A stretch of 20,870 bases of DNA, taken from positions 1-20,870 of the IMG/VR virus record IMGVR_UViG_3300021960_000647. One strand, written 5' to 3'. Below the pieces are notes generated by a model, which ran no database searches, had not been told where the DNA came from, and saw nothing but the letters and a program-made list of their open reading frames with translations. Position 1 is the stretch's first letter. Each line of letters begins with the position of its first letter. The stretch comes from a virus. A program made the position numbers and the translations under genes. Of this stretch, positions 1 to 20,802 are shown one piece after another.

Positions 1-57
1 TACCAGTAACGTAGGGGCCCCCAGTGGCCCATCCCCGCCCCCCACAGTCACGCATGA

Positions 58-152
58 ATTTACACTGTAAATAATCAAAGAGTGCCTAAAAAATAGGCAT
101 TTATTAGTTATTGCCTAAAAAATAGGCAAAATATATAATTTACAAGGTAAAT
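58..152. repeat. Operator-like palindrome family A, copies 1-2
   Basis: Perfect 6-bp inverted arms ATTTAC and GTAAAT separated by 3 bases at 58-72 and 138-152. A degenerate half-site CTTTAC at 163-168 lies 25 bases after the second copy, matching the 25-base spacing of the other pairs (386-425 and 718-757). Probably binding sites of a dimeric repressor; the binding protein is not identified. Confidence 0.55.
83..128. repeat. Operator-like palindrome family B, copies 1-2
   Basis: TGCCTA-AAAAA-TAGGCA occurs exactly twice (83-99 and 112-128), centres 29 bases apart, interleaved with family A copies 1 and 2. The 6-bp arms with an A/T-only 5-base centre look like a helix-turn-helix regulator site. 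Confidence 0.55.
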
Positions 153-220
153 GCATTAGTGACTTTACAGCGATTGAAAGTTGCCACCAGCTAAGTATTT
201 GATTTAAAAGGATTTATTGC

Positions 221-274
221 ATGACTATATATCATAATATACAGCAACTATGGCAGGGACTACCCAAACCCTAA
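221..274 (+). CDS. Possible 17-residue leader peptide
   Basis: A short frame MTIYHNIQQLWQGLPKP preceded by AAAAGGA (206-212) with 8 bases to the ATG, as good a ribosome-binding site as those of accepted genes in the window. No promoter is obvious and no family is recognised. It lies between the two groups of family B palindromes and could be a leader peptide, or chance. Confidence 0.2.
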   Translation: MTIYHNIQQLWQGLPKP

Positions 275-284
275 CGCCTTGAAT

Positions 285-301
285 TGCCTATTTATTAGGC
301 A
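285..301. repeat. Operator-like palindrome family B, copy 3
   Basis: TGCCTA-TTTAT-TAGGCA, with the same arms as the copies at 83-128 and a different A/T centre. Exact conservation of arms with a variable centre favours a protein binding site over chance. Confidence 0.55.
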
Positions 302-385
302 TGGAAACTATGGCACGATTCTTGCTTGTGAGTGTGACATTTGTGCAACACTGTGACTCGAAAGTCACTCATCAAGCCCCTTACC

Positions 386-425
386 ATTTACGCTGTAAAG
401 TCACGGCATAATGTACACTGTAAAT
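386..425. repeat. Operator-like palindrome family A, copies 3-4
   Basis: Two copies of the ATTTAC-N3-GTAAAT palindrome, each with one arm mismatch (386-400 ending GTAAAG, 411-425 beginning ATGTAC). Their centres are 25 bases apart. A weak third half-site CTTTTA follows at the same 25-base step (436-441). Confidence 0.55.
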
Positions 426-498
426 GCACCAGTAACTTTTAGGTGTTGCATAATTGCAACGTCAATAGAAAAATCGACAAGTCATGCAAAAATATCTA

Positions 499-528
499 TT
501 GACAGTCCCTTTTTAGACTAATTCTAAA
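499..528 (+). promoter_or_regulatory. Sigma-70-like promoter overlapped by inverted repeat
   Basis: A consensus TTGACA (499-504) is followed after 18 bases by TCTAAA (523-528). A perfect inverted repeat, TTTTTAGA (510-517) and TCTAAAAA (523-530), covers the spacer and -10 and could be an operator. A perfect TATAAT at 559-564, lacking a good -35, may be a second start. Transcription would run into the hairpin region at 602-717. Confidence 0.45.
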
Positions 529-534
529 AAACTA

Positions 535-720
535 GCTAAGTACTTGAAAACAAACGATTATAATGACAAGCCTACGTTGCGTTCTAAGCACTAGGAAAGC
601 TGGTCTATATAGTAGCATACCCGGGAACGTTTCAGCCCCTCACAAGCTATATAACCCCGCCTAGCGTGGATTCTATCCGCTAGTTCCTTGCGAGTACTCC
701 CCAGCACTAGGGGAGTAATT
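535..720 (+). ncRNA. Candidate structured non-coding RNA
   Basis: Downstream of a TTGACA promoter and a TATAAT box are three stable hairpins with no open frame. Stem 602-612 pairs with 647-656 as 10 base pairs with one bulged C. The second hairpin is CTAGC/GCTAG enclosing GGAT/ATCC (661-683). The third is TACTCCCC/GGGGAGTA with a 7-base loop (695-717) and may be the 3' end, though its tail is only AATTT. AGCACTAGG occurs twice (587-595 and 703-711). No known RNA family is recognised; it might instead be a structured DNA site. Confidence 0.35.
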
Positions 721-757
721 TACAACGTAAATTCACTAATGGTTTTACATTGTAAAT
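718..757. repeat. Operator-like palindrome family A, copies 5-6
   Basis: ATTTAC-AAC-GTAAAT at 718-732 and TTTTAC-ATT-GTAAAT at 743-757, centres again 25 bases apart. The pair sits between the hairpin at 695-717 and the terminator of the leftward gene at 817-1002. Confidence 0.55.
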
Positions 758-769
758 CATGAAGGCACA

Positions 770-794
770 AAAAAGCCCGCTGTCATAGCGGGCT
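770..794 (-). terminator. Rho-independent terminator after 817-1002
   Basis: Read leftward, arms AAGCCCGCT and AGCGGGCTT close a 5-base loop and are followed by six T then GTGC. It ends transcription of the small leftward gene whose stop is at 817. The hairpin is nearly identical to those at 1107-1131 and 1751-1776. Confidence 0.85.
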
Positions 795-816
795 TCAGTG
801 TCTCTATGGGATATCT

Positions 817-1002
817 TTAGACGATAAAAGCAAATCCCGCTTTTACTTCAATCAGCCCCTTATCCTCCAAATTAGCCAAGGCCCCGCCAATGGCGGACAA
901 GTCCAAGTCAAAGCGATTAGACAATTCACCTATTAAGTCGCCCAAAGCTATGGCTTCAATGGCAGTGACAAGGTTAAGCATGGTGGTTTCGACAATAGTC
1001 AT
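817..1002 (-). CDS. Small winged-helix-like protein, possible regulator
   Basis: A 61-residue protein. The ATG at 1002 is preferred over longer frames because it follows AGAAAG at a usable distance, and other small genes here have a similar leader. The sequence reads as short helices followed by a typical wing: a LGDLIGELSNRF helix, then LSAIGGALANLEDKGLIEV, then a beta-like tail FAFIV. This pattern resembles small winged helix-turn-helix regulators, but the assignment is only by eye. It is followed by its own terminator (770-794). Palindromes of the TGCAA-N3-TTGCA type lie upstream at 1067-1079, so it may be controlled by, or itself bind, such sites. It could equally be a phage protein of unknown role. 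Confidence 0.55.
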   Translation of the reverse strand: MTIVETTMLNLVTAIEAIALGDLIGELSNRFDLDLSAIGGALANLEDKGLIEVKAGFAFIV

Positions 1003-1066
1003 GATCTGTTCTTTCTGTTTGGTTTCTGATGGATACATAGAACCACACCCCAAGCCCGGGCACCAA

Positions 1067-2425: not shown

Positions 2426-3115
2426 TCAAGCCCCTTTTGCTACATTATCGGCTTTTTTCTTGCTAGTCCCATGAGCAGGGAACGCAATGATAAAGTCTCG
2501 CTCACTAATTGAGCACAACTTGCAAGTCTCGCAAGAAACCTTGTCATTATGCGTAGCAGGACAGACAACATACTTATTTCCGCTATCCGTGAAAGTTTTC
2601 CGTGTTTCTGTGGATGCTACAACTGAAGTAATAGGAAACTCAGGAAAACTTTTTTTGAGGTCGTTTGCTTCCTGAATGTTGTTTGCCGATACGTTCACAG
2701 TAAACCCGGCTTCATTAGCGGCAAAAACAGCCATAAAGTTTTTCGGGTTTTCTAAATCGTGGTGAGTATAAGTAAACCCACGCTTGCCTTCATTAGCTTC
2801 TACTAGCTTGGCTAGTTTAAACCCGTCAATAGTCCCTTTGCCGTCTTGCGGCAAATCCCCGGCTTGATTATGACGCCATAGTTGATTCTCTGGCAAGGCT
2901 TCAATTTCTTTGCAAAAGTCATTCCATGTCATGCCCCGGTCGTGACTGGATACCTTGTCCCAATGAAGCTTCAAGGGGCCACTTGCGGCATAACAACCCC
3001 CCTCATTCATGTGATTGAACGGGCATGTATTTGGGCATGATGCTTGTTCTGTAGTGGACACGGGGATTTTTCCCGTTTTTGCGTTGCTTGACTTTTTCGT
3101 TAGGTGGACTTGCAT
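2426..3115 (-). CDS. Cysteine-rich conserved phage/plasmid protein (DUF7227-like)
   Basis: A 229-residue protein that resembles, from memory, a family common on plasmids and phages without a known function. Marker blocks are MQVHLTKKSSNAKTGKIPVS at the start, ASCPNTCPF (Cys 27 and 31), GGCYAASGPLKLHW, QLWRHNQAGDLPQDG, KRGFTYTHHDL and a C-terminal CETCKLCSISERDFIIAFPAHGTSKKK. About seven cysteines in CX3C and CX2CX2C-like arrangements suggest a metal or iron-sulfur site; that is inference. The ATG at 3115 follows AAAAGGGAAA. A promoter (TTGACA, 17, TCTATT) lies at 3150-3178, next to the repeat array at 3200-3360. Confidence 0.7.
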   Translation of the reverse strand: MQVHLTKKSSNAKTGKIPVSTTEQASCPNTCPFNHMNEGGCYAASGPLKLHWDKVSSHDRGMTWNDFCKEIEALPENQLWRHNQAGDLPQDGKGTIDGFKLAKLVEANEGKRGFTYTHHDLENPKNFMAVFAANEAGFTVNVSANNIQEANDLKKSFPEFPITSVVASTETRKTFTDSGNKYVVCPATHNDKVSCETCKLCSISERDFIIAFPAHGTSKKKADNVAKGA

Positions 3116-3149
3116 TTTAGGTTTCCCTTTTTGCGTTTAACTGAAAACC

Positions 3150-3178
3150 AATAGAACACAAGCAAAACAAATTGTCAA
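3150..3178 (-). promoter_or_regulatory. Promoter of the gene at 2426-3115
   Basis: Minus-strand TTGACA (3173-3178), a 17-base spacer and TCTATT (3150-3155). The tandem repeats begin about 20 bases upstream of the -35, so proteins bound there could act on this promoter. Confidence 0.6.
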
Positions 3179-3199
3179 CCATAAAATTGCGTATTTTTA

Positions 3200-3360
3200 A
3201 AGAAACTTTATAAGCTATCTTGTAAGAAACTTTATAAGCATTTTGTAAGAAACTTTATAAGCATTTTGTAAGAAACTTTATAAGCATTTTGTAAGAAACT
3301 TTATAAGCATTTTGTAAGAAACTTTATAAGCATTTTGTAAGAAACTTTATAAGCTATCTT
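3200..3360. repeat. Seven tandem 23/24-bp iteron-like repeats
   Basis: The core AAGAAACTTTATAAGC occurs seven times, starting at 3200, 3224, 3247, 3270, 3293, 3316 and 3339. Copies 2-6 are joined by ATTTTGT (23-base period). Copies 1 and 7 are followed by TATCTTGT instead, so the array has matching edge units. The cores are identical, implying recent homogenisation or strong selection. Direct orientation, a period near two helical turns and the AT-rich flank fit iterons bound by a replication or partition protein. No such protein is recognised in the window. Confidence 0.8.
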
Positions 3361-3519
3361 GTGAGTATGTTTTTTATGTTTTATACAAAAAGAATAAAAA
3401 CCAAAAGTTACTTACAAGTAAGAATATTATACACTAAAAATTATTTCTGTCAATCATTATCTTTGTAATTATATTACTATTTTCCTACAAACAAAACAAT
3501 AATATTATTCTCTTTCTTG

Positions 3520-3548
3520 TTGACTTTCCTTCCAAGGCTTAGTATGGT
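3520..3548 (+). promoter_or_regulatory. First rightward promoter
   Basis: TTGACT (3520-3525), a 17-base spacer and TATGGT (3543-3548). It precedes the start of the rightward gene series at 3579. Confidence 0.6.
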
Positions 3549-3578
3549 CTAACTCAATCGAAACAGAAAGGTAAGGAA

Positions 3579-3746
3579 ATGAAAGACAATAGAAACCTGA
3601 TGCCAAACGAAAACTGGCAAACATCACAACGAGGACCTAATGAGGATGAATACAAAATTTATCTTTCTTGTGCTGATGATGGAAACGGCAATGACTTTAC
3701 GACAGGCAAGCCGCTAAAGTCCTATGATGAATGGTTGAACAGCTAA
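3579..3746 (+). CDS. Conserved small phage protein (TGKPLKSYDEWL type)
   Basis: A 55-residue protein. Its C-terminal half, with YLSCADDGNGND, then TTGKPLKSYDEWLNS, resembles a short family seen on many phages and plasmids, remembered rather than searched. No function is known. The ATG follows AAAGGTAAGGAA, a strong ribosome-binding site, and the promoter at 3520-3548 lies just upstream. It is the first gene of the rightward series. Its leader CAATCGAAACAGAAAGG is nearly repeated before the next gene at 3774. Confidence 0.65.
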   Translation: MKDNRNLMPNENWQTSQRGPNEDEYKIYLSCADDGNGNDFTTGKPLKSYDEWLNS

Positions 3747-3956: not shown

Positions 3957-4704
3957 ATATGAACTGGCAGAAAAGCAAGATAACGGGCTTTATCGTATAC
4001 GTGCCTTAAAAGGCTTTGGGGACGTAAAGAAAGGCGATTTAGGCGGGTTTGTAAGTGGCGTCCATAATCTCTCACAAGAAGGCTTGTGTTGGGTGCAAGG
4101 TGACGCTTTGGTGTCCGGTGACGCTTGGGTGTTCGGTAACGCTCGGGTGTCCGATGACGCTCGGGTTTCTGACAACGCTCGGGTTTCTGCCAACGCTCGG
4201 GTTTCTGATTACGCTCAGGTGTTCGGTAACGCTTGGGTTTATGGTGACGCTCGGGTGTTCGGTGACGCTTTGGTGTTTGATGACGCTCTGGTGTTCGGTA
4301 ACGCTCGGGTGTTCGGTTTCGCTCAGGTGTCCGATGACGCTCAGGTGTCCGATGACGCTCGGGTTTATGGTAACGCTCGGGTGTTCGGTTACGCTCAGGT
4401 GTTCGGTAACGCTTGGGTTTATGGTGACGCTCGGGTGTTCGGTGACGCTTTGGTGTTTGATGACGCTCTGGTGTTCGGTAACGCTCGGGTTTCGGGTATT
4501 ATGAGAAGTGACGGCTATTCTTTCATAGCTGTTCCTGACAAGAATAACGTTATCCGGGTTATCGCTGGTCGTCGTTATTTCACCTTTGATGAAGCCTATG
4601 AGCATTGGGAGCTTACACGTAAGGATACACCTTTAGGAGACGAAACTATAGAAATTTTGAACTTTATGAAAAAAATGGTTGACATTAAAGGATACGCAGG
4701 CTAG
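3949..4704 (+). CDS. Hexapeptide-repeat left-handed beta-helix protein
   Basis: A 251-residue protein built around about 22 consecutive six-residue units of the form A-[RWLQ]-V-[FSY]-[GD]-[ND] (bases about 4099-4497). This periodicity is typical of a left-handed beta-helix, as in hexapeptide acyltransferases and related phage proteins. The N-terminal 45 residues (KYELAEKQDNGLYRIRALK, GDLGGFV) and the C-terminal cap (VIRVIAGRRYFTFDEAYEHW) are non-repetitive and resemble the caps of similar phage proteins of unknown function. No transferase active site is recognised. The ATG at 3949 is chosen over 3943 because AAGGA (3936-3940) then lies 8 bases away. A 102-base segment is duplicated exactly at a distance of 180 bases. 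The gene's end holds the promoter for rIIA. Confidence 0.75.
   Translation: MNKYELAEKQDNGLYRIRALKGFGDVKKGDLGGFVSGVHNLSQEGLCWVQGDALVSGDAWVFGNARVSDDARVSDNARVSANARVSDYAQVFGNAWVYGDARVFGDALVFDDALVFGNARVFGFAQVSDDAQVSDDARVYGNARVFGYAQVFGNAWVYGDARVFGDALVFDDALVFGNARVSGIMRSDGYSFIAVPDKNNVIRVIAGRRYFTFDEAYEHWELTRKDTPLGDETIEILNFMKKMVDIKGYAG
4209..4490 (+). repeat. Internal 180-bp duplication in the beta-helix gene
   Basis: Bases 4209-4310 are identical to 4389-4490 (102 bases), an offset of 180 bases, i.e. ten 18-base hexapeptide codon units. Around it the 18-base unit (GGTAACGCTCGGGTGTTC-like) repeats imperfectly from about 4099 to 4497. Confidence 0.85.
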
Positions 4705-4707
4705 TAT
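4679..4707 (+). promoter_or_regulatory. Promoter in front of rIIA
   Basis: TTGACA (4679-4684), a 17-base spacer and TAGTAT (4702-4707), straddling the stop of the beta-helix gene. It gives a short leader before the ATG at 4737. Confidence 0.6.
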
Positions 4708-4736
4708 CCCAACATCACTTGAAAGAAGGAAGCAAG

Positions 4737-6950
4737 ATGAAACTGAACACTGAACAGAATGACATTGTAAAGATTGGGAACTTCGGAGAAACGGGTGCTT
4801 TTAATATTCAAGCCTCTGCGAAGGCTTTTAAAATCCTCTCGGATGGTCTCTACACCGATAAAATTCAGGCTTGTATTCGGGAGCTATCCTGTAATGCCTA
4901 CGACAGTCATGTTGCTGCTGGTAAGGCTGATGTTCCTTTTAAGGTTCATATGCCTACAATTCTGGAGCCCTTTTTCAGTGTTCAAGATTTCGGTTTAGGC
5001 TTGTCCCATGACGACATTATGCACCTGTACACTACGTACTTTTCCAGTACTAAAACAGACTCCAATGATTTCATTGGGGCGCTTGGGCTTGGAAGTAAAT
5101 CGCCATTCTCTTATGTAGATAGCTTCACAGTCGAAAGTATCTTTGAAGGTCGCCTGCGTAAGTACTCTGCCTATATTGGAGAGGATGGTTCGCCTCAGAT
5201 CACGCTTATGATGGAAGACATGACTTGTGGTACTAATGGTGTCACTGTGTCCTTCCCTGTTAAGAAAGAGGATATTAATACTTTCTCTAAATACGGGTAT
5301 CTTTTTGATCTGTTTCCTGTGGAACCTCTCAATAACTTCCAGTATGAGAACAAGACGGAAGTGGTAGAGGAGATTGAAGGCTTGTGCAGGTTCATTAATA
5401 ATGGGTATCTCCGCCAGCACCGGGAATATTACTTTGCCATTCAAGGTAGCGTATCCTATCCTATTACAATGTCAGAAGAACTTCTGGCAGAAATTGAGAA
5501 GTATGGTGATGAAACCATTCTTAAAAATTCCCATCCTATCAATGTCTGTCAAATGATCTTTCCTGTAGGCTCCCTTGATGTAGCTGCTAGTCGTGAAGCC
5601 CTATCCTATGACAAGCAAACGATTGAAGCGATTGCCAAGCGAGGGCATGAGGCCTACAAAGCCATTGAAGCTAAAATTCAAAAAGACATAGACGCTTGCC
5701 TTACTGAGTGGGAAGCCTACACTACAGCATATCATTTGGAGCAGGCATACAAGGGGTATTTTAATTTATCAACAGTCACTTATAAAGGTAAGAAGTACGA
5801 TTGTAAAAAGTGGGGTACTTCTCACCTTCATGGTACCCACAAATTTACCATGTACGCGAAGAACCTTCATGATTATCGCTTCAAGGAAGTTTCTAAAAGC
5901 TACGCAGCAGGTAATATAACTATCCCTCTAAAGTCCGATAAGGCACCTGCCTTCATTGTCGTGACAGGTGATGTACGGAATTACAAACAGCGAGCTAACA
6001 AGTACTTGCAAGACACCTCAGAGATTATTCGGGTCCTGACTATCCAACCACCTTCTTTTATTGAGCCAGAGAAGCTGCACGAGTTTCTTTCAGGTATCGT
6101 CGAAGGGTATCCTTACATTATGTATGATCGTGACCTGCCAGATGTGGAGCGTAGTTCCTCTGGTGCGCCTAAAGTAAAGAGTACGGTTGAGAAGACACCA
6201 GAGAACCTTACAGAATATTTCGAGGTTAAAGATACTCGCTGGTATGGTGGATTAGACCGCTGCTATAAGCCGCTACCTGACTCTGGTGGCTACTATGTAG
6301 AAATCAAGAACAACCATTGGCTCCGCTCTGATGGCGCAGAAGCCATTAGTTTGGCTACTGAAAATTCTTATCGAAATTTTGATTGGATTACTTCTCTGAA
6401 AGAAGCTCTTGGTATTAATACTCTTTATGGGTTCAACCAAGTACAGATGCGTCATATTCGTAATGACGCTCGCTGGAAGCCTGTCAATTCTCTTATTACG
6501 TCTAAGCTAGAGCACCCTAAAGCTGTAGAACATGCGGAAAAGGAAGCGGAGTTTGCTGCCGTTAGCGATTATGATAGAGGATATTTGAGGGATAACCGGC
6601 CTATTATTAGTGTCCTTTCAGAATTTCATCCAGAACTGGAAAAAGGTATCACTCAAATTCAGGCGTCAGAGGCTTTCTATGCTGATATGAAAGATGCGAC
6701 AGACGATGGTGTAAAGTTTGCACACAAAGCTGTATCCATTCACCAATTGAATACTGCCCTGCGCCGTATCCTTGGGAAAGATGAACTTTATCCGAAAAAA
6801 GACTTGACATCCTTAAATTTCTCGGGTATGGTATCAGACCTTGTAACAGAAAAATATCCTCTACTTATGTCGGCAAGCGGAGAATTTACAGACAACATAG
6901 AAGAAGCTAAGATTTACATTAACGCAAAGAAGGAAATGGAAAATGAGTAA
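4737..6950 (+). CDS. rIIA: rIIA-like GHKL ATPase-fold protein
   Basis: A 737-residue protein, close to the roughly 725 residues of T4 rIIA. The N-terminal third carries the ATP-binding (GHKL/Bergerat) motifs: E49-x3-N53-A-x-D56 (ELSCNAYD), D84-F-G86-L-G88 and GALGLGSKS at 114-122. In T4, rIIA and rIIB are membrane-associated and linked to rapid lysis control and to growth on lambda lysogens; the molecular activity is unsettled. The ATG at 4737 is chosen because AAGGA lies 6 bases upstream; an upstream TTG at 4719 lacks a site. It overlaps rIIB by 8 bases, as expected for an rIIA-rIIB pair, and is preceded by a good promoter (4679-4707). Confidence 0.88.
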   Translation: MKLNTEQNDIVKIGNFGETGAFNIQASAKAFKILSDGLYTDKIQACIRELSCNAYDSHVAAGKADVPFKVHMPTILEPFFSVQDFGLGLSHDDIMHLYTTYFSSTKTDSNDFIGALGLGSKSPFSYVDSFTVESIFEGRLRKYSAYIGEDGSPQITLMMEDMTCGTNGVTVSFPVKKEDINTFSKYGYLFDLFPVEPLNNFQYENKTEVVEEIEGLCRFINNGYLRQHREYYFAIQGSVSYPITMSEELLAEIEKYGDETILKNSHPINVCQMIFPVGSLDVAASREALSYDKQTIEAIAKRGHEAYKAIEAKIQKDIDACLTEWEAYTTAYHLEQAYKGYFNLSTVTYKGKKYDCKKWGTSHLHGTHKFTMYAKNLHDYRFKEVSKSYAAGNITIPLKSDKAPAFIVVTGDVRNYKQRANKYLQDTSEIIRVLTIQPPSFIEPEKLHEFLSGIVEGYPYIMYDRDLPDVERSSSGAPKVKSTVEKTPENLTEYFEVKDTRWYGGLDRCYKPLPDSGGYYVEIKNNHWLRSDGAEAISLATENSYRNFDWITSLKEALGINTLYGFNQVQMRHIRNDARWKPVNSLITSKLEHPKAVEHAEKEAEFAAVSDYDRGYLRDNRPIISVLSEFHPELEKGITQIQASEAFYADMKDATDDGVKFAHKAVSIHQLNTALRRILGKDELYPKKDLTSLNFSGMVSDLVTEKYPLLMSASGEFTDNIEEAKIYINAKKEMENE
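6804..6832 (+). promoter_or_regulatory. Promoter inside rIIA, ahead of rIIB
   Basis: TTGACA (6804-6809), a 17-base spacer and TATGGT (6827-6832), about 110 bases before the rIIB start. It would allow rIIB to be made independently of rIIA. Confidence 0.5.
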
Positions 6951-7761
6951 CAACACAAACGGCGCTATCCTCACCAGTGAAAGTATCACAGCTATTGTGG
7001 ATGGCAACCAATATACAGTAACACGAGACAATGTGAATTTCACAAAGGCTCTGGAAGCTGCTTCGGAACAACGATGGGATGATCTTGTGGAGATTCTCTC
7101 CCCAGTAACAGTCTTGATTAATTTTGGGAATGGCAGAGTGACTATTAAAGATGGTCAGGTGCTTTATATGGGAGATGTTGTTCACAACGTCCTTGCCACT
7201 CGAATGTTGGAAATGGCACAAACAGGCTTCAACGTTGAGCCGATGGCTAACTTCCTTGACAATCTTCATTCAAACCCCTCGAAACAGGCTGTAGATGAAC
7301 TATACCTGTTCTTGGAAGCTAACAATCTGGCAATTACGCCGGATGGTCACTTCCTTGCTTATAAGAGGGTCACAGAAGATTATATGGACATTCACAGCCG
7401 GTCTATGAATAACAGCGTGGGTCAGGTAGTTACTATGCCCCGTAATAAAGTGGATGATGTCCGTGCTAATACCTGCTCAGAAGGGTTGCACTTCTGCTCG
7501 CTGGAATACCTGCCTCACTTTGGTTCCCTTTCCCGAGGAGATCGGACAGTTATTGTCAAGATCAACCCGGCTGATGTTGTAAGTATTCCGAAGGACTATA
7601 ACAATGCTAAGGGTCGCACCTGTCGCTATCAGGTAGTAGCGGAGCATGACAGTGACACTGAGAGTGCTTTTTATGAACCTGTAGTGGATTACTCCCCTGA
7701 GGAAGAAGCCAACGAGCTCGGTGATAGTTTCTTTGAATTTTTAGAGGGACTTACGGACTAA
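6943..7761 (+). CDS. rIIB: rIIB-like protein
   Basis: A 272-residue protein directly after rIIA with an 8-base overlap. The middle and C-terminal parts carry blocks typical of phage rIIB proteins: FLEANNLAITPDGHFLAYKR, then YMDIHSRSMNNSVGQVVTMPR and ANTCSEGLHFCSLEYL, then a VVKINPADVVSIP-like strand and KGRTCRYQVV. T4 rIIB is 312 residues, so this one is somewhat shorter. It probably acts together with rIIA at the membrane in exclusion or lysis timing. The ATG follows AAGGAAATGGAAA, giving a good ribosome-binding site. Catalytic activity is not predicted. Confidence 0.85.
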   Translation: MSNNTNGAILTSESITAIVDGNQYTVTRDNVNFTKALEAASEQRWDDLVEILSPVTVLINFGNGRVTIKDGQVLYMGDVVHNVLATRMLEMAQTGFNVEPMANFLDNLHSNPSKQAVDELYLFLEANNLAITPDGHFLAYKRVTEDYMDIHSRSMNNSVGQVVTMPRNKVDDVRANTCSEGLHFCSLEYLPHFGSLSRGDRTVIVKINPADVVSIPKDYNNAKGRTCRYQVVAEHDSDTESAFYEPVVDYSPEEEANELGDSFFEFLEGLTD

Positions 7762-9894: not shown

Positions 9895-10728
9895 ATGACT
9901 CTTGACGACGCTATCGACCTGTACATCGACTCCTCTTGGTTTGTCGGCTTGGCAAGTAATACTCAAACTAATTACTTAGCCTATCTCGATAAAGCGAAGA
10001 AATTACTTCCTACTACTACAGAAAAGGTAACTCCTTTACTTGCTGACAAAATCTATGCCAAAGTAAAATCAAAGAGTGGAGAGAGAACAGCAATTTACTT
10101 TTGCTCTGTTATGAGGAGACTTTGGAATTTTCTTTATAGGGCAGGAGAAGTTCAGTCTGTTCCTTGGGCTGCAATGGGCGTTAAGAATACGCTTAAGCCT
10201 CGTGATTCCATTTGGAGTCCTGAACAAGTAGATAAGGTCATTGATGAAGGTAGTCTTGGGTTGTCCTTGTTCGTATCTATGTCTTATGATACCGGGCAGC
10301 GTCCCTCTGATATTCTTTCAGTAACCAAAAGTAATGTTAAAGATGGTTGCCTGTCACTGGAACAGTCAAAAACAGGGACTAAAGTGGTTGTTCCTCTTAC
10401 CAGTAGAACGCTTAACCTACTCGACAGAAGGTATCAAGAGCTACCAAATACGGACACTCTTGTATGTACTAAGACAGGTCTAAAATATCACTTGACAAAC
10501 CTCAACAATGAGTTTAGAATAGTGCGAGATAAGTTGGGAATCCCTAGTAATATCCAATTGCGTGATCTTCGACGTACTACTCTGACTGAACTCGGGAACG
10601 CTGGTGCGACAGAGGATGAAATTATTGCTGTCTCTGGACACAAATCCCGACAAGTCGTATCTGTTTACGTACAGAAAACAAAACAACAAGCGTTTAACGC
10701 TATGGAAAAAAGGAAGAACAATCAATGA
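9895..10728 (+). CDS. int: Tyrosine recombinase (integrase)
   Basis: A 277-residue phage-type tyrosine recombinase. The N-terminal part (TLDDAIDLYIDSSWFVGLAS) is a core-binding SAM-like domain of about 100 residues. The catalytic half contains R136 (TGQRPSDIL), K159 (SKTGTK), the box QLRDLRRT with R226, H249 (SGHKS) and Y258 (VYVQKT) as the nucleophile. The residue usually His three before the second Arg is Arg here (R223). It would cut and rejoin DNA at an attachment site that I could not locate. It lies between small genes and the T7-like replication operon and has its own promoter. It could serve integration, or resolution of genome multimers. Confidence 0.85.
   Translation: MTLDDAIDLYIDSSWFVGLASNTQTNYLAYLDKAKKLLPTTTEKVTPLLADKIYAKVKSKSGERTAIYFCSVMRRLWNFLYRAGEVQSVPWAAMGVKNTLKPRDSIWSPEQVDKVIDEGSLGLSLFVSMSYDTGQRPSDILSVTKSNVKDGCLSLEQSKTGTKVVVPLTSRTLNLLDRRYQELPNTDTLVCTKTGLKYHLTNLNNEFRIVRDKLGIPSNIQLRDLRRTTLTELGNAGATEDEIIAVSGHKSRQVVSVYVQKTKQQAFNAMEKRKNNQ
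10492..10520 (+). promoter_or_regulatory. Promoter inside int, ahead of the MazG-like gene
   Basis: TTGACA (10492-10497), a 17-base spacer and TAGAAT (10515-10520), about 200 bases before the ATG at 10725. It would let the replication operon run without full int transcription. Confidence 0.5.
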
Positions 10729-11548: not shown

Positions 11549-13238
11549 TACTAACTTCATTACTAAGACAAACTGCGAGAAGTGTGGATCAAAAGATAAT
11601 GTTGGTGTTTGGGAAACAGAAGAAGGAAAGTATCACGGGTACTGTTTCTCACAGGAATGTGAAGCCCATTATAATTGGAACACGCTAGAGGATGTTGGAA
11701 TTGAAGGAAAAGGACATATGAGTACACAGAAAACGTCTTATAACCCTTCTAATAAAGGGGTGAGTTGGAAGACTCAACCTCTTGAAGATCGTGCTATCAT
11801 GCTTGATGCTGTTCAAAAGTTCCAGATCAAGACTGGCTCTAATGGTGAGATTGCTTTCCCGTTCTATAACAAAAACGGAGAAGTCGATTGGGTTAAGTAT
11901 AGGACACCTGACAAGGACTTCAAAGTACAAAAGAAGTCCGGTGCTAATTTCAATGATGCTCTCCTATTTGGTCAGAACCTCTTTCCTGCTGGTAAAGGGA
12001 CAGGTAAGTTCAAGAACATCATCACTATTGTAGAAGGTGAGTTTGATGCTGCATCAGCTTGGGAGCTCCTTGGACAGAAAGGCTCTGTAGTATCTCTCAA
12101 GAACGGAGCACAGTCAGTTAAGCAATCTTTGAAAAACCCTGATATTTATGAGTACCTTAACTCCTTTGACACTATCGTTGTTTGTTTCGACAATGACGAG
12201 GCAGGCAAGTCAGCAACCAAGACTTTCTGTTCGGCCTTCCATCCGAAGAAGCTCAAATTGTTCCCGCACCAGCCGGGGCTGAAAGATGCTAATGATTATC
12301 TGATGAAGGGGCTGTACAAGAAGTTCACGGACTTGTGGTGGAAGTCAGAACCTTATAAAGAAGATGGCATCATCGCTGCTGATACTCTTATTGGGAACAT
12401 TGTTAATAAGCCCCCACAGGTCTGCTATAGCTATCCTTGGGAGGGTTTGAATGAGAAGACATATGGCTGTCGTATGACTGAAATGGTCACTATCACAGCC
12501 ATGACGGGTGTAGGTAAGACACAGATTCTTCGTGAGTTTGACTATGGTATGCTGACTAACCCTGACCCCGTTTTGTTTACTGAGAACCTTCCTGATGGGT
12601 TTGTGCCAGAGAAGATAAAAGTCGGTATTCTTTCTATTGAGGAAGACCCGGAAGTATCTCTCGAGGGGCTTGCCAGCCTTCACCTGAACAAGAAGCTACA
12701 CCTTCCTGACGTACATAAAGACCCTGATGAAGTAACCACCGCTCTTAAAGAAATTGTATATGACGAAGATGGTGAGGTACGTCTATATTTCTATGACCAG
12801 TTTGGGTCTAATGAGATTGAGAACATCATCAATAAAATCTGGTTCATGGCTAAAGGCTTGGACTGTAATGTAGTAGTACTTGATCATATCAATATGGTTG
12901 TATCAGATCAGCGTCAGGAAGATGAACGTCGAGCCCTTGATGAAATTGCTACCAAGCTCAAGCAAATGACCAAGGATTTGAAGATCAACCTACATGTCGT
13001 TGCTCACCAGAACCGTGATGGTAAAATCCGTGGCACAGCAGCTATCGAGCAGTTAAGTAACACTGTTATCTTCGCTGAACGAGATATTGAAGCGGAGAAT
13101 GAGGAGCTTCGTAACACGACCTCCCTATCTATCCAGAAGTGCCGTTTTAGTGGCAAGACTGGACCGGCTGGTTGGTTGTATTATGATGATGAAACAGGCC
13201 GTATGATTGAAGTAGATTGCCCTACAATGGAGGTTTAA
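11541..13238 (+). CDS. T7 gp4-type bifunctional primase-helicase
   Basis: A 565-residue protein, the same length as T7 gp4 (566). Zinc-ribbon cysteines are C12, C15, C35 and C40. The TOPRIM primase core shows IVEGEFDAASAWELLG and VVCFDNDEAGKSA. The RecA-like helicase has Walker A MTGVGKT near residue 321, a Walker-B-like VVVLDHINMV near 447 and the RGTAAIEQL segment. It makes RNA primers and unwinds the fork with the polymerase at 13892. Unlike T7 gp4 it has no long acidic C-terminal tail; it ends EVDCPTMEV. It overlaps the amidase gene by 8 bases. An internal ATG at 11718 may give a shorter helicase-only form. Confidence 0.93.
   Translation: MADTNFITKTNCEKCGSKDNVGVWETEEGKYHGYCFSQECEAHYNWNTLEDVGIEGKGHMSTQKTSYNPSNKGVSWKTQPLEDRAIMLDAVQKFQIKTGSNGEIAFPFYNKNGEVDWVKYRTPDKDFKVQKKSGANFNDALLFGQNLFPAGKGTGKFKNIITIVEGEFDAASAWELLGQKGSVVSLKNGAQSVKQSLKNPDIYEYLNSFDTIVVCFDNDEAGKSATKTFCSAFHPKKLKLFPHQPGLKDANDYLMKGLYKKFTDLWWKSEPYKEDGIIAADTLIGNIVNKPPQVCYSYPWEGLNEKTYGCRMTEMVTITAMTGVGKTQILREFDYGMLTNPDPVLFTENLPDGFVPEKIKVGILSIEEDPEVSLEGLASLHLNKKLHLPDVHKDPDEVTTALKEIVYDEDGEVRLYFYDQFGSNEIENIINKIWFMAKGLDCNVVVLDHINMVVSDQRQEDERRALDEIATKLKQMTKDLKINLHVVAHQNRDGKIRGTAAIEQLSNTVIFAERDIEAENEELRNTTSLSIQKCRFSGKTGPAGWLYYDDETGRMIEVDCPTMEV
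11704..11720 (+). promoter_or_regulatory. Internal start for helicase-only form
   Basis: AAGGA at 11704-11708 lies 9 bases before the in-frame ATG at 11718 (Met60 of the primase-helicase), just after the zinc domain. T7 makes a 4B helicase from an internal start at Met64, so a similar product is plausible. Confidence 0.45.
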
Positions 13239-13324: not shown

Positions 13325-13522
13325 ATGGATGAAGAACAACCACTTGAACTCCTGTATGATGCTATAGCTAATAACAAGTCCTTGGGGAATATACACTTTT
13401 GGAAAAGTGATATACACTACACAAGGGCAGCTATACACTACGCCACTGGCGTATATCTAACCTTGAAAGAAACTCACAGATACCTTGTAGAAGAAGGATT
13501 GATAAAAGAACATGACAGATAG
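13325..13522 (+). CDS. Hypothetical 65-residue protein
   Basis: A small protein starting MDEEQPLELLYDAIANNKSL, with an ANNKSLGNIHFWKS core and a helix-like second half (THRYLVEEGLIKEH) that looks like the recognition half of a helix-turn-helix (VYLTLKETHRYLVEEGLI). It may be a small DNA-binding protein, but I cannot assign a family. The start sits 5 bases after the stop of the membrane peptide at 13239-13319. Confidence 0.5.
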   Translation: MDEEQPLELLYDAIANNKSLGNIHFWKSDIHYTRAAIHYATGVYLTLKETHRYLVEEGLIKEHDR

Positions 13523-13533
13523 AGAATACGTTG

Positions 13534-13701
13534 ATGAAGTGCAAGAATAACGTGTGGAAAACATGGGCAAGAGCCCTTGGGGGAAAATCTGGTAATTCTG
13601 ACAAAGAGGCTGATGCAGTAGCTAGAGTTAGAACATCAATCATCATCTTTGAAGTAATTGTCGGTGGGTTTATCATCGCCAACGCTATTAGACACTGGTA
13701 G
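13534..13701 (+). CDS. Small membrane protein, 55 residues
   Basis: A frame of 55 residues. The N-terminus is basic (MKCKNNVWKTWARALGGKS), followed by a charged linker (SDKEADAVARVR) and one hydrophobic helix (TSIIIFEVIVGGFIIANAI) close to the end (RHW). This predicts a single-pass membrane protein with a cytoplasmic basic head. The ATG has only a weak GA-rich ribosome-binding site (GAATACGTTG) and it overlaps a 12-codon frame, so the start is not certain. It could be a holin or pinholin candidate, given that no other holin is evident; that is inference. Confidence 0.5.
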   Translation: MKCKNNVWKTWARALGGKSGNSDKEADAVARVRTSIIIFEVIVGGFIIANAIRHW

Positions 13702-20509: not shown

Positions 20510-20802
20510 GTACGCTCAAAGATGCTTTAGAAGCTATCCGAAAGGGCAACAGTGAAGGATTTGGCAGTCAGGTTGGTGGTACACACTATCAGGACTGCCT
20601 TATCCAGCCCATGCTCTACTCGGAAGTAAACAAACTTGGTCCCAATGCCCATAGCATCATTAAGTATGCTACCCGAGCAGGGAAGAAGGACGGAGAGAGC
20701 TTCTATAAAGAAATGGCAAAGATACGGCAATGTACTTATCTTTGGGAGGAAGCTTGGGAAGCAATGACTGGAGAAACGAAGGAGGATTATATTGGAGATT
20801 AA
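20506..20802 (+). CDS. DUF3310 phage protein
   Basis: A 98-residue protein with the SQVGGTHYQDCLIQPMLYSE opening of the DUF3310 family, followed by IIKYATRAGKKDG and a helix KEMAKIRQCTYLWEEAWEAM. The family is common in phage genomes, often annotated as nucleotide kinase-like, but no activity is established. Its place after the ribonucleotide reductase fits a nucleotide-metabolism role. It starts in the ATGA at the end of the previous gene and overlaps the next one by 11 bases. Confidence 0.75.
   Translation: MSTLKDALEAIRKGNSEGFGSQVGGTHYQDCLIQPMLYSEVNKLGPNAHSIIKYATRAGKKDGESFYKEMAKIRQCTYLWEEAWEAMTGETKEDYIGD

Follow-up and report, generated by a model that had tools for sequence, protein, structure and literature searches.

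The gamma origin of plasmid R6K contains seven 22-bp iterons, and a DnaA box is a common, but not universal, part of iteron origins. In the lactococcal phage c2, the origin is intergenic and sits beside an early promoter. Repeat arrays can also act as centromeres or provide the arm sites of integrases, and a tRNA gene is a common att target. Phage SPP1 has two origins, which consist of direct repeats and an AT-rich unwinding element, and it encodes the origin-binding protein gp38 and the loader gp39 (PMC6316719). Cluster A mycobacteriophages have operators and stoperators of 13 bp that are scattered through the genome and have been proposed to halt both initiation and elongation of transcription (PMC9283540).

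The array described here lies in a 20.9-kb linear virus contig from IMG/VR (the whole of which we call the window), a fragment of the larger genome of an uncultured virus of bacteria. It occupies positions 3196–3362 and is genuine, though its class, the repeat arrays of phage control regions, is an ordinary one. The core AAGAAACTTTATAAGC occurs seven times exactly and head to tail between 3200 and 3354 (starts at 3200, 3224, 3247, 3270, 3293, 3316 and 3339, thus steps of 24, 23, 23, 23, 23 and 23), which agrees with the original prediction of seven identical cores at 23/24-base steps. The unit reads GTAAGAAACTTTATAAGCATTTT on the plus strand and GCTTATAAAGTTTCTTACAAAAT on the minus strand, and each unit holds the dyad ACTT-TAT-AAGC. 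The joints between cores are 7–8 bp long and nearly all identical; joints 2–6 read ATTTTGT, while TATCTTGT follows the first and last copies, so that the deviant edge joints noticed earlier are also borne out. Tandem Repeats Finder (TRF) delimits the array at 3193–3362, with a period of 23, 7.3 copies and 95% matches. No exact copy of AAGAAACTTTATAAGC is found elsewhere in the window, where the sole other near match lies at 20519 with 3 mismatches, and dinucleotide shuffles never reached the 8 matches seen at ≤3 mismatches (mean 0.39). The copy number should be read with caution, as the array, at ∼165 bp, is about the length of a short read and the assembler may have miscounted. As predicted, the array adjoins AT-rich DNA between the leftward and rightward gene blocks, in a non-coding interval that extends from the DUF7227 gene (2426–3115) to ∼3579. 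The GC content is 25% at 3116–3570 vs. 43% across the window. The AT-rich stretch itself covers 3363–3520; the least stable 100 bp of the entire window start at 3408, and the second least stable at 3207, within the array.

To the left of this divergence are small leftward genes, the first of which encodes a DUF7227 (phrog_2554) protein on the minus strand. To the right, a small ORF of 55 amino acids, read from the sequence (3579–3746, plus strand), comes first, and the block continues with genes for a beta-solenoid protein, rIIA- and rIIB-like proteins, an integrase (9895–10728), an amidase, a primase-helicase, a family A polymerase, an ssDNA-binding protein, a Cas4-type exonuclease, RusA and a ribonucleotide reductase. 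The original prediction had called this phage T7-like, which is only partly right. Its replisome genes are of T7 type, but by polymerase and helicase the closest named phages are the Pelagibacter podophages HTVC103P, HTVC104P and HTVC115P, Zobellviridae (SIO1, P12053L) and Pseudoalteromonas phage Slicky01, all at 28–36% identity. A T7-type RNA polymerase (PF00940) was not found in the window or in the two relatives described below (three incomplete contigs), in a search that detected it in both control phages, Pasto and CHOED.

A single close lineage was found, comprising a 31.7-kb contig (L045) and a second contig (L046), with 69% identity to the window in the helicase and 72–73% in the polymerase. 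These two contigs are counted as one lineage because they are identical across the 700 bp compared. Most genes shared by L045 and the window are in the same order, and the DUF7227 protein is 62% identical in L045, where its gene also adjoins an array. Searches for further relatives through rIIA, the integrase and the promoter pattern yielded none, a search of genome contigs gave remote helicases only, and a polymerase profile found 78 more loci, which are only ∼30–34% identical and are without a comparable non-coding array. In the coding DNA of the rightward block, window 4053–4556 holds ∼22 copies of 18-bp in-frame repeats that encode the YdcK-like beta-solenoid; the copy number of this repeat is 38.6 in L045 and 43.6 in L046, despite identical neighboring DNA. 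The rIIA- and rIIB-like genes occupy window 4719–7761 in this podophage-like genome, and L045 does not have them at that position.

Two promoter-like sites, in tandem and both leftward, flank the array; they were called as σ70 consensus matches in a scan and are thus predicted rather than mapped starts. The upstream site, P1 (3426–3453, minus strand), is a perfect consensus, TTGACA-16-TATAAT (12/12), with an expected start at ∼3419, and would transcribe through the array. The second, P2 (3150–3178, minus strand; TTGACA-17-TCTATT, 10/12), stands directly ahead of DUF7227. A possible rightward promoter is seen at 3520–3548 on the plus strand (TTGACT-17-TATGGT, 9/12), although matches this good are expected by chance. 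The same order of perfect P1, repeats, P2 and DUF7227 is present in L045, with P1 at 4480–4453 and P2 (10/12) at 4112–4084, and the distance from the P2 −35 element to the array edge is 17 bp in the window and 26 bp in L045. The longest palindrome of the intergenic region, TTACTT-AC-AAGTAA (TTACTTACAAGTAA, 3408–3421), lies over the expected P1 start, so that, going by these consensus matches, the repeated sites lie between the two promoters and a related one overlaps the expected P1 start, as in an operator array. The plus-strand sequence AAAGTTACTTACAAG (3404–3418) matches the array edge unit AAAGTTTCTTACAAG at 14 of 15 positions in inverted orientation; on its own, this inverted match at 3404 lacks significance, as 36 of 500 shuffles equaled it.

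L045 also has tandem repeats between DUF7227 and its rightward genes, although these differ in sequence and have 13-, 91- and 60-bp units. Compared as a whole, the unit of the window is no more similar to the L045 region than shuffles are, and the dyads alone are common to both. The dyad ACTT-N2/3-AAG(C/T) occurs at 8 sites in the window region, namely the seven units and the P1 palindrome, and at 10 sites in its L045 counterpart; its probability in a random 23-mer of equal composition is 0.005. A second dyad, GTAAT-TAT-ATTAC, is present in the window at 3465–3477 as the sole match, even at one mismatch, while the L045 region (4583–4775) has six exact copies of GTAAT-N3-ATTAC and one with a mismatch (P = 0.00065 in shuffled flank). 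Both of these P values are optimistic, because the motifs were defined after inspecting both sequences. An untuned comparison of window 14-mers with L045 was weakly positive, with 2 of 60 shuffles reaching the observed value. The sequence following the P1 −10 element also aligns between the two phages (TATTCTTACTT..AAGTAACTT in the window vs. TAGTCTTACTT..AAGTTACTT in L045), with a score reached in 15 of 2000 shuffles. The conservation that the original prediction had looked for in related genomes, checked here in one close lineage, therefore holds for position and half-site and fails for the repeat unit. Sequence alone shows the array, the order of the promoter-like sites, the dyads found in both phages and the layout shared with this one lineage.

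Outside its divergence, L045 carries the motif at 1098–1362, ahead of a late leftward block, and at 12439–12476, just upstream of the polymerase gene. The same site thus stands at three places in L045 and, in the window, at the divergence only; the array motif is not clearly seen at other promoters of the window, from which the left part of the genome is cut off. L045 1098–1362 and 4139–4444 are related arrays in inverted orientation that flank leftward early genes, and ∼100 bp of them align at ∼86%. Beyond this lineage, DNA of the region compared with phages and plasmids gave no match better than E = 0.4. An exact 18-mer of the unit had one match in IMG/VR, which falls in the coding sequence of a contig (L044) that is unrelated, and was judged to be chance. 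Other phages mostly have no array near their DUF7227 genes; one DUF7227-bearing phage contig (L033) contains a non-coding array of 26-bp repeats at 129–322, with ∼7 copies.

The best reading of these features, which we consider an even call, is a multivalent, rapidly turning-over array that binds a regulator of the early leftward promoters. On entry, strong promoters of host type would fire; a DNA-binding protein of the phage would then probably occupy the array together with the similar palindrome at the P1 start, and thereby control P1 and the adjoining P2, the putative drivers of the leftward early gene or genes from DUF7227 on. With accumulation of this protein, multiple filled sites would prevent P1 from initiating and stop elongation within its leader, or would set P2. 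Here we infer the binding of a protein, its identity and the sign of the regulation. The motif recurs at several loci in L045, as would be expected if the regulator had more than one target. The array resembles the cluster A stoperators in having many short asymmetric sites near promoters and in transcribed stretches, in one orientation relative to transcription (PMC9283540), but its 23-bp units follow one another directly, head to tail, and its regulator is represented by candidates. A multivalent regulator site had been among the original suggestions, and it gains from the promoter geometry, from the palindrome at the expected P1 start and from the dyad that the relative shares at the same place, with the binding protein as the piece that did not emerge.

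An HTH_3 repressor is absent from the window, L045 and L046 contigs. Two small proteins are weak candidates for binding the array. One is a small helical, putatively DNA-binding protein encoded between the helicase and the polymerase (13325–13522, plus strand; 62% identical in L045), which weakly resembles gp81 of phage CRP-345 (small search, E = 0.0008), the product of the first leftward gene at the divergence of that phage. Its structure model is helical, with a pLDDT of 75 and no match in the PDB. The other is a small winged-helix-like ORF (817–1005, minus strand) that is MarR-like at E ∼0.001, below the Pfam cut-off. The structure model of the 1155 protein is of low confidence (57).

An iteron-like origin, also named in the original prediction, is a tentative and somewhat doubtful alternative, in which an initiator would bind the seven direct repeats and the AT-rich flank would melt, helped to open by transcription from P1, as at SPP1 oriL/oriR or the lambda ori. 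The seven repeats, at 23/24 bp, fall among the ∼17–24 bp direct repeats of iteron origins, and they lie head to tail next to an easily melted AT-rich flank. Of all 100-bp stretches in the window, the two with the lowest stability are the array and its right flank, and L045 likewise has its least stable DNA in its arrays (1185, 4104, 4347), although AT-rich DNA is expected at promoters anyway. Cumulative GC skew bottoms out close to the divergence in each phage (window 3008, L045 4777), a pattern that the change of coding strand would also produce. The likeness to R6K gamma extends to copy number, unit length and the AT-rich neighbor, but no Rep_3-type initiator was found here and no DNA similar to the array region is present in the plasmid collection. 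In SPP1, too, direct repeats lie beside an AT-rich stretch, and its two direct-repeat origins parallel the two arrays of L045, yet no initiator was recognized with lambda-O (Phage_rep_O) and Rep_3 models in these incomplete contigs. Like c2, a member of a different phage group, the window pairs an early/late divergence with a predicted strong promoter of host type. The array region also has no DnaA box; the only TTWTNCACA match in the window is at 13553 and L045 has none. The copies of the motif adjoining the L045 polymerase gene would not be needed by an origin. In favor of the origin suggestion are the repeats, the low stability and the nearness to the skew minimum. Regulation and origin function are compatible, and it is conceivable, though unlikely, that this is a combined control region for transcription and replication of a Zobellviridae-like, integrase-bearing podophage, where two dyads are kept while a different one is multiplied in each lineage, turnover of the array re-tunes the switch and a small phage protein binds.

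The remaining explanations are less probable still. Neutral expansion by slippage of the spacer between promoters, with a copy number of no function, has some appeal as the inner units and joints are identical, with the edge joint TATCTTGT likely an older form, and as in L045 it is other, dissimilar units that were expanded at this position, which indicates rapid turnover. This identity within and difference between the two phages would suit the idea, but the amplified units carry shared dyads, in both phages and at the same place relative to the two promoters, and we regard it as improbable. A partition centromere, a recombination site of the att arm type or a packaging site is more improbable again. 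The integrase gene and, as read from translations, the terminase and portal genes in the relative's left arm would suit the latter two; however, the integrase gene is 6.5 kb distant, and no tRNA gene is present in the scanned loci, which cover the array and part of the window. The centromere, put forward in the original prediction, goes unsupported because ParB (PF02195) was not found in the three incomplete contigs (window, L045 and L046). The least probable reading, to which we attach very little weight, is a transcribed repeat RNA acting as a sponge, a CRISPR-repeat mimic or a structured leader. The predicted P1 would indeed transcribe the array, but the units have no spacers between them, and hence none of the unique spacers of a CRISPR array, no Rfam match was obtained, and the leader folds no better than shuffles (z 0.34), which makes DNA rather than RNA the likely target.

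The papers searched contain no description of an origin or an early switch of Zobellviridae-like phages, and the array, as a binding array for an early regulator or otherwise, is one short, testable DNA target that could reveal either. A control region that keeps its position and half-sites while the repeat unit changes would also be a handle on the evolution of phage control regions.

Other features lie to the left of the array. The non-coding DNA at window 1–800 contains several TTTACANNGTAAAT-like palindromes and three TGCCTA/TAGGCA palindromes, which are possibly operators or part of a terminal or packaging region. At 1066–1101 and 1414–1449, TGCAATTATTGCA-like palindromes make up a 36-bp inverted repeat (94%), which precedes two ORFs, one leftward and winged-helix-like, the other rightward, and looks like the operators of a second regulator. 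Three similar GCCCGCT...AGCGGGC hairpin terminators, at 748–807, 1086–1145 and 1744–1772, separate small genes.
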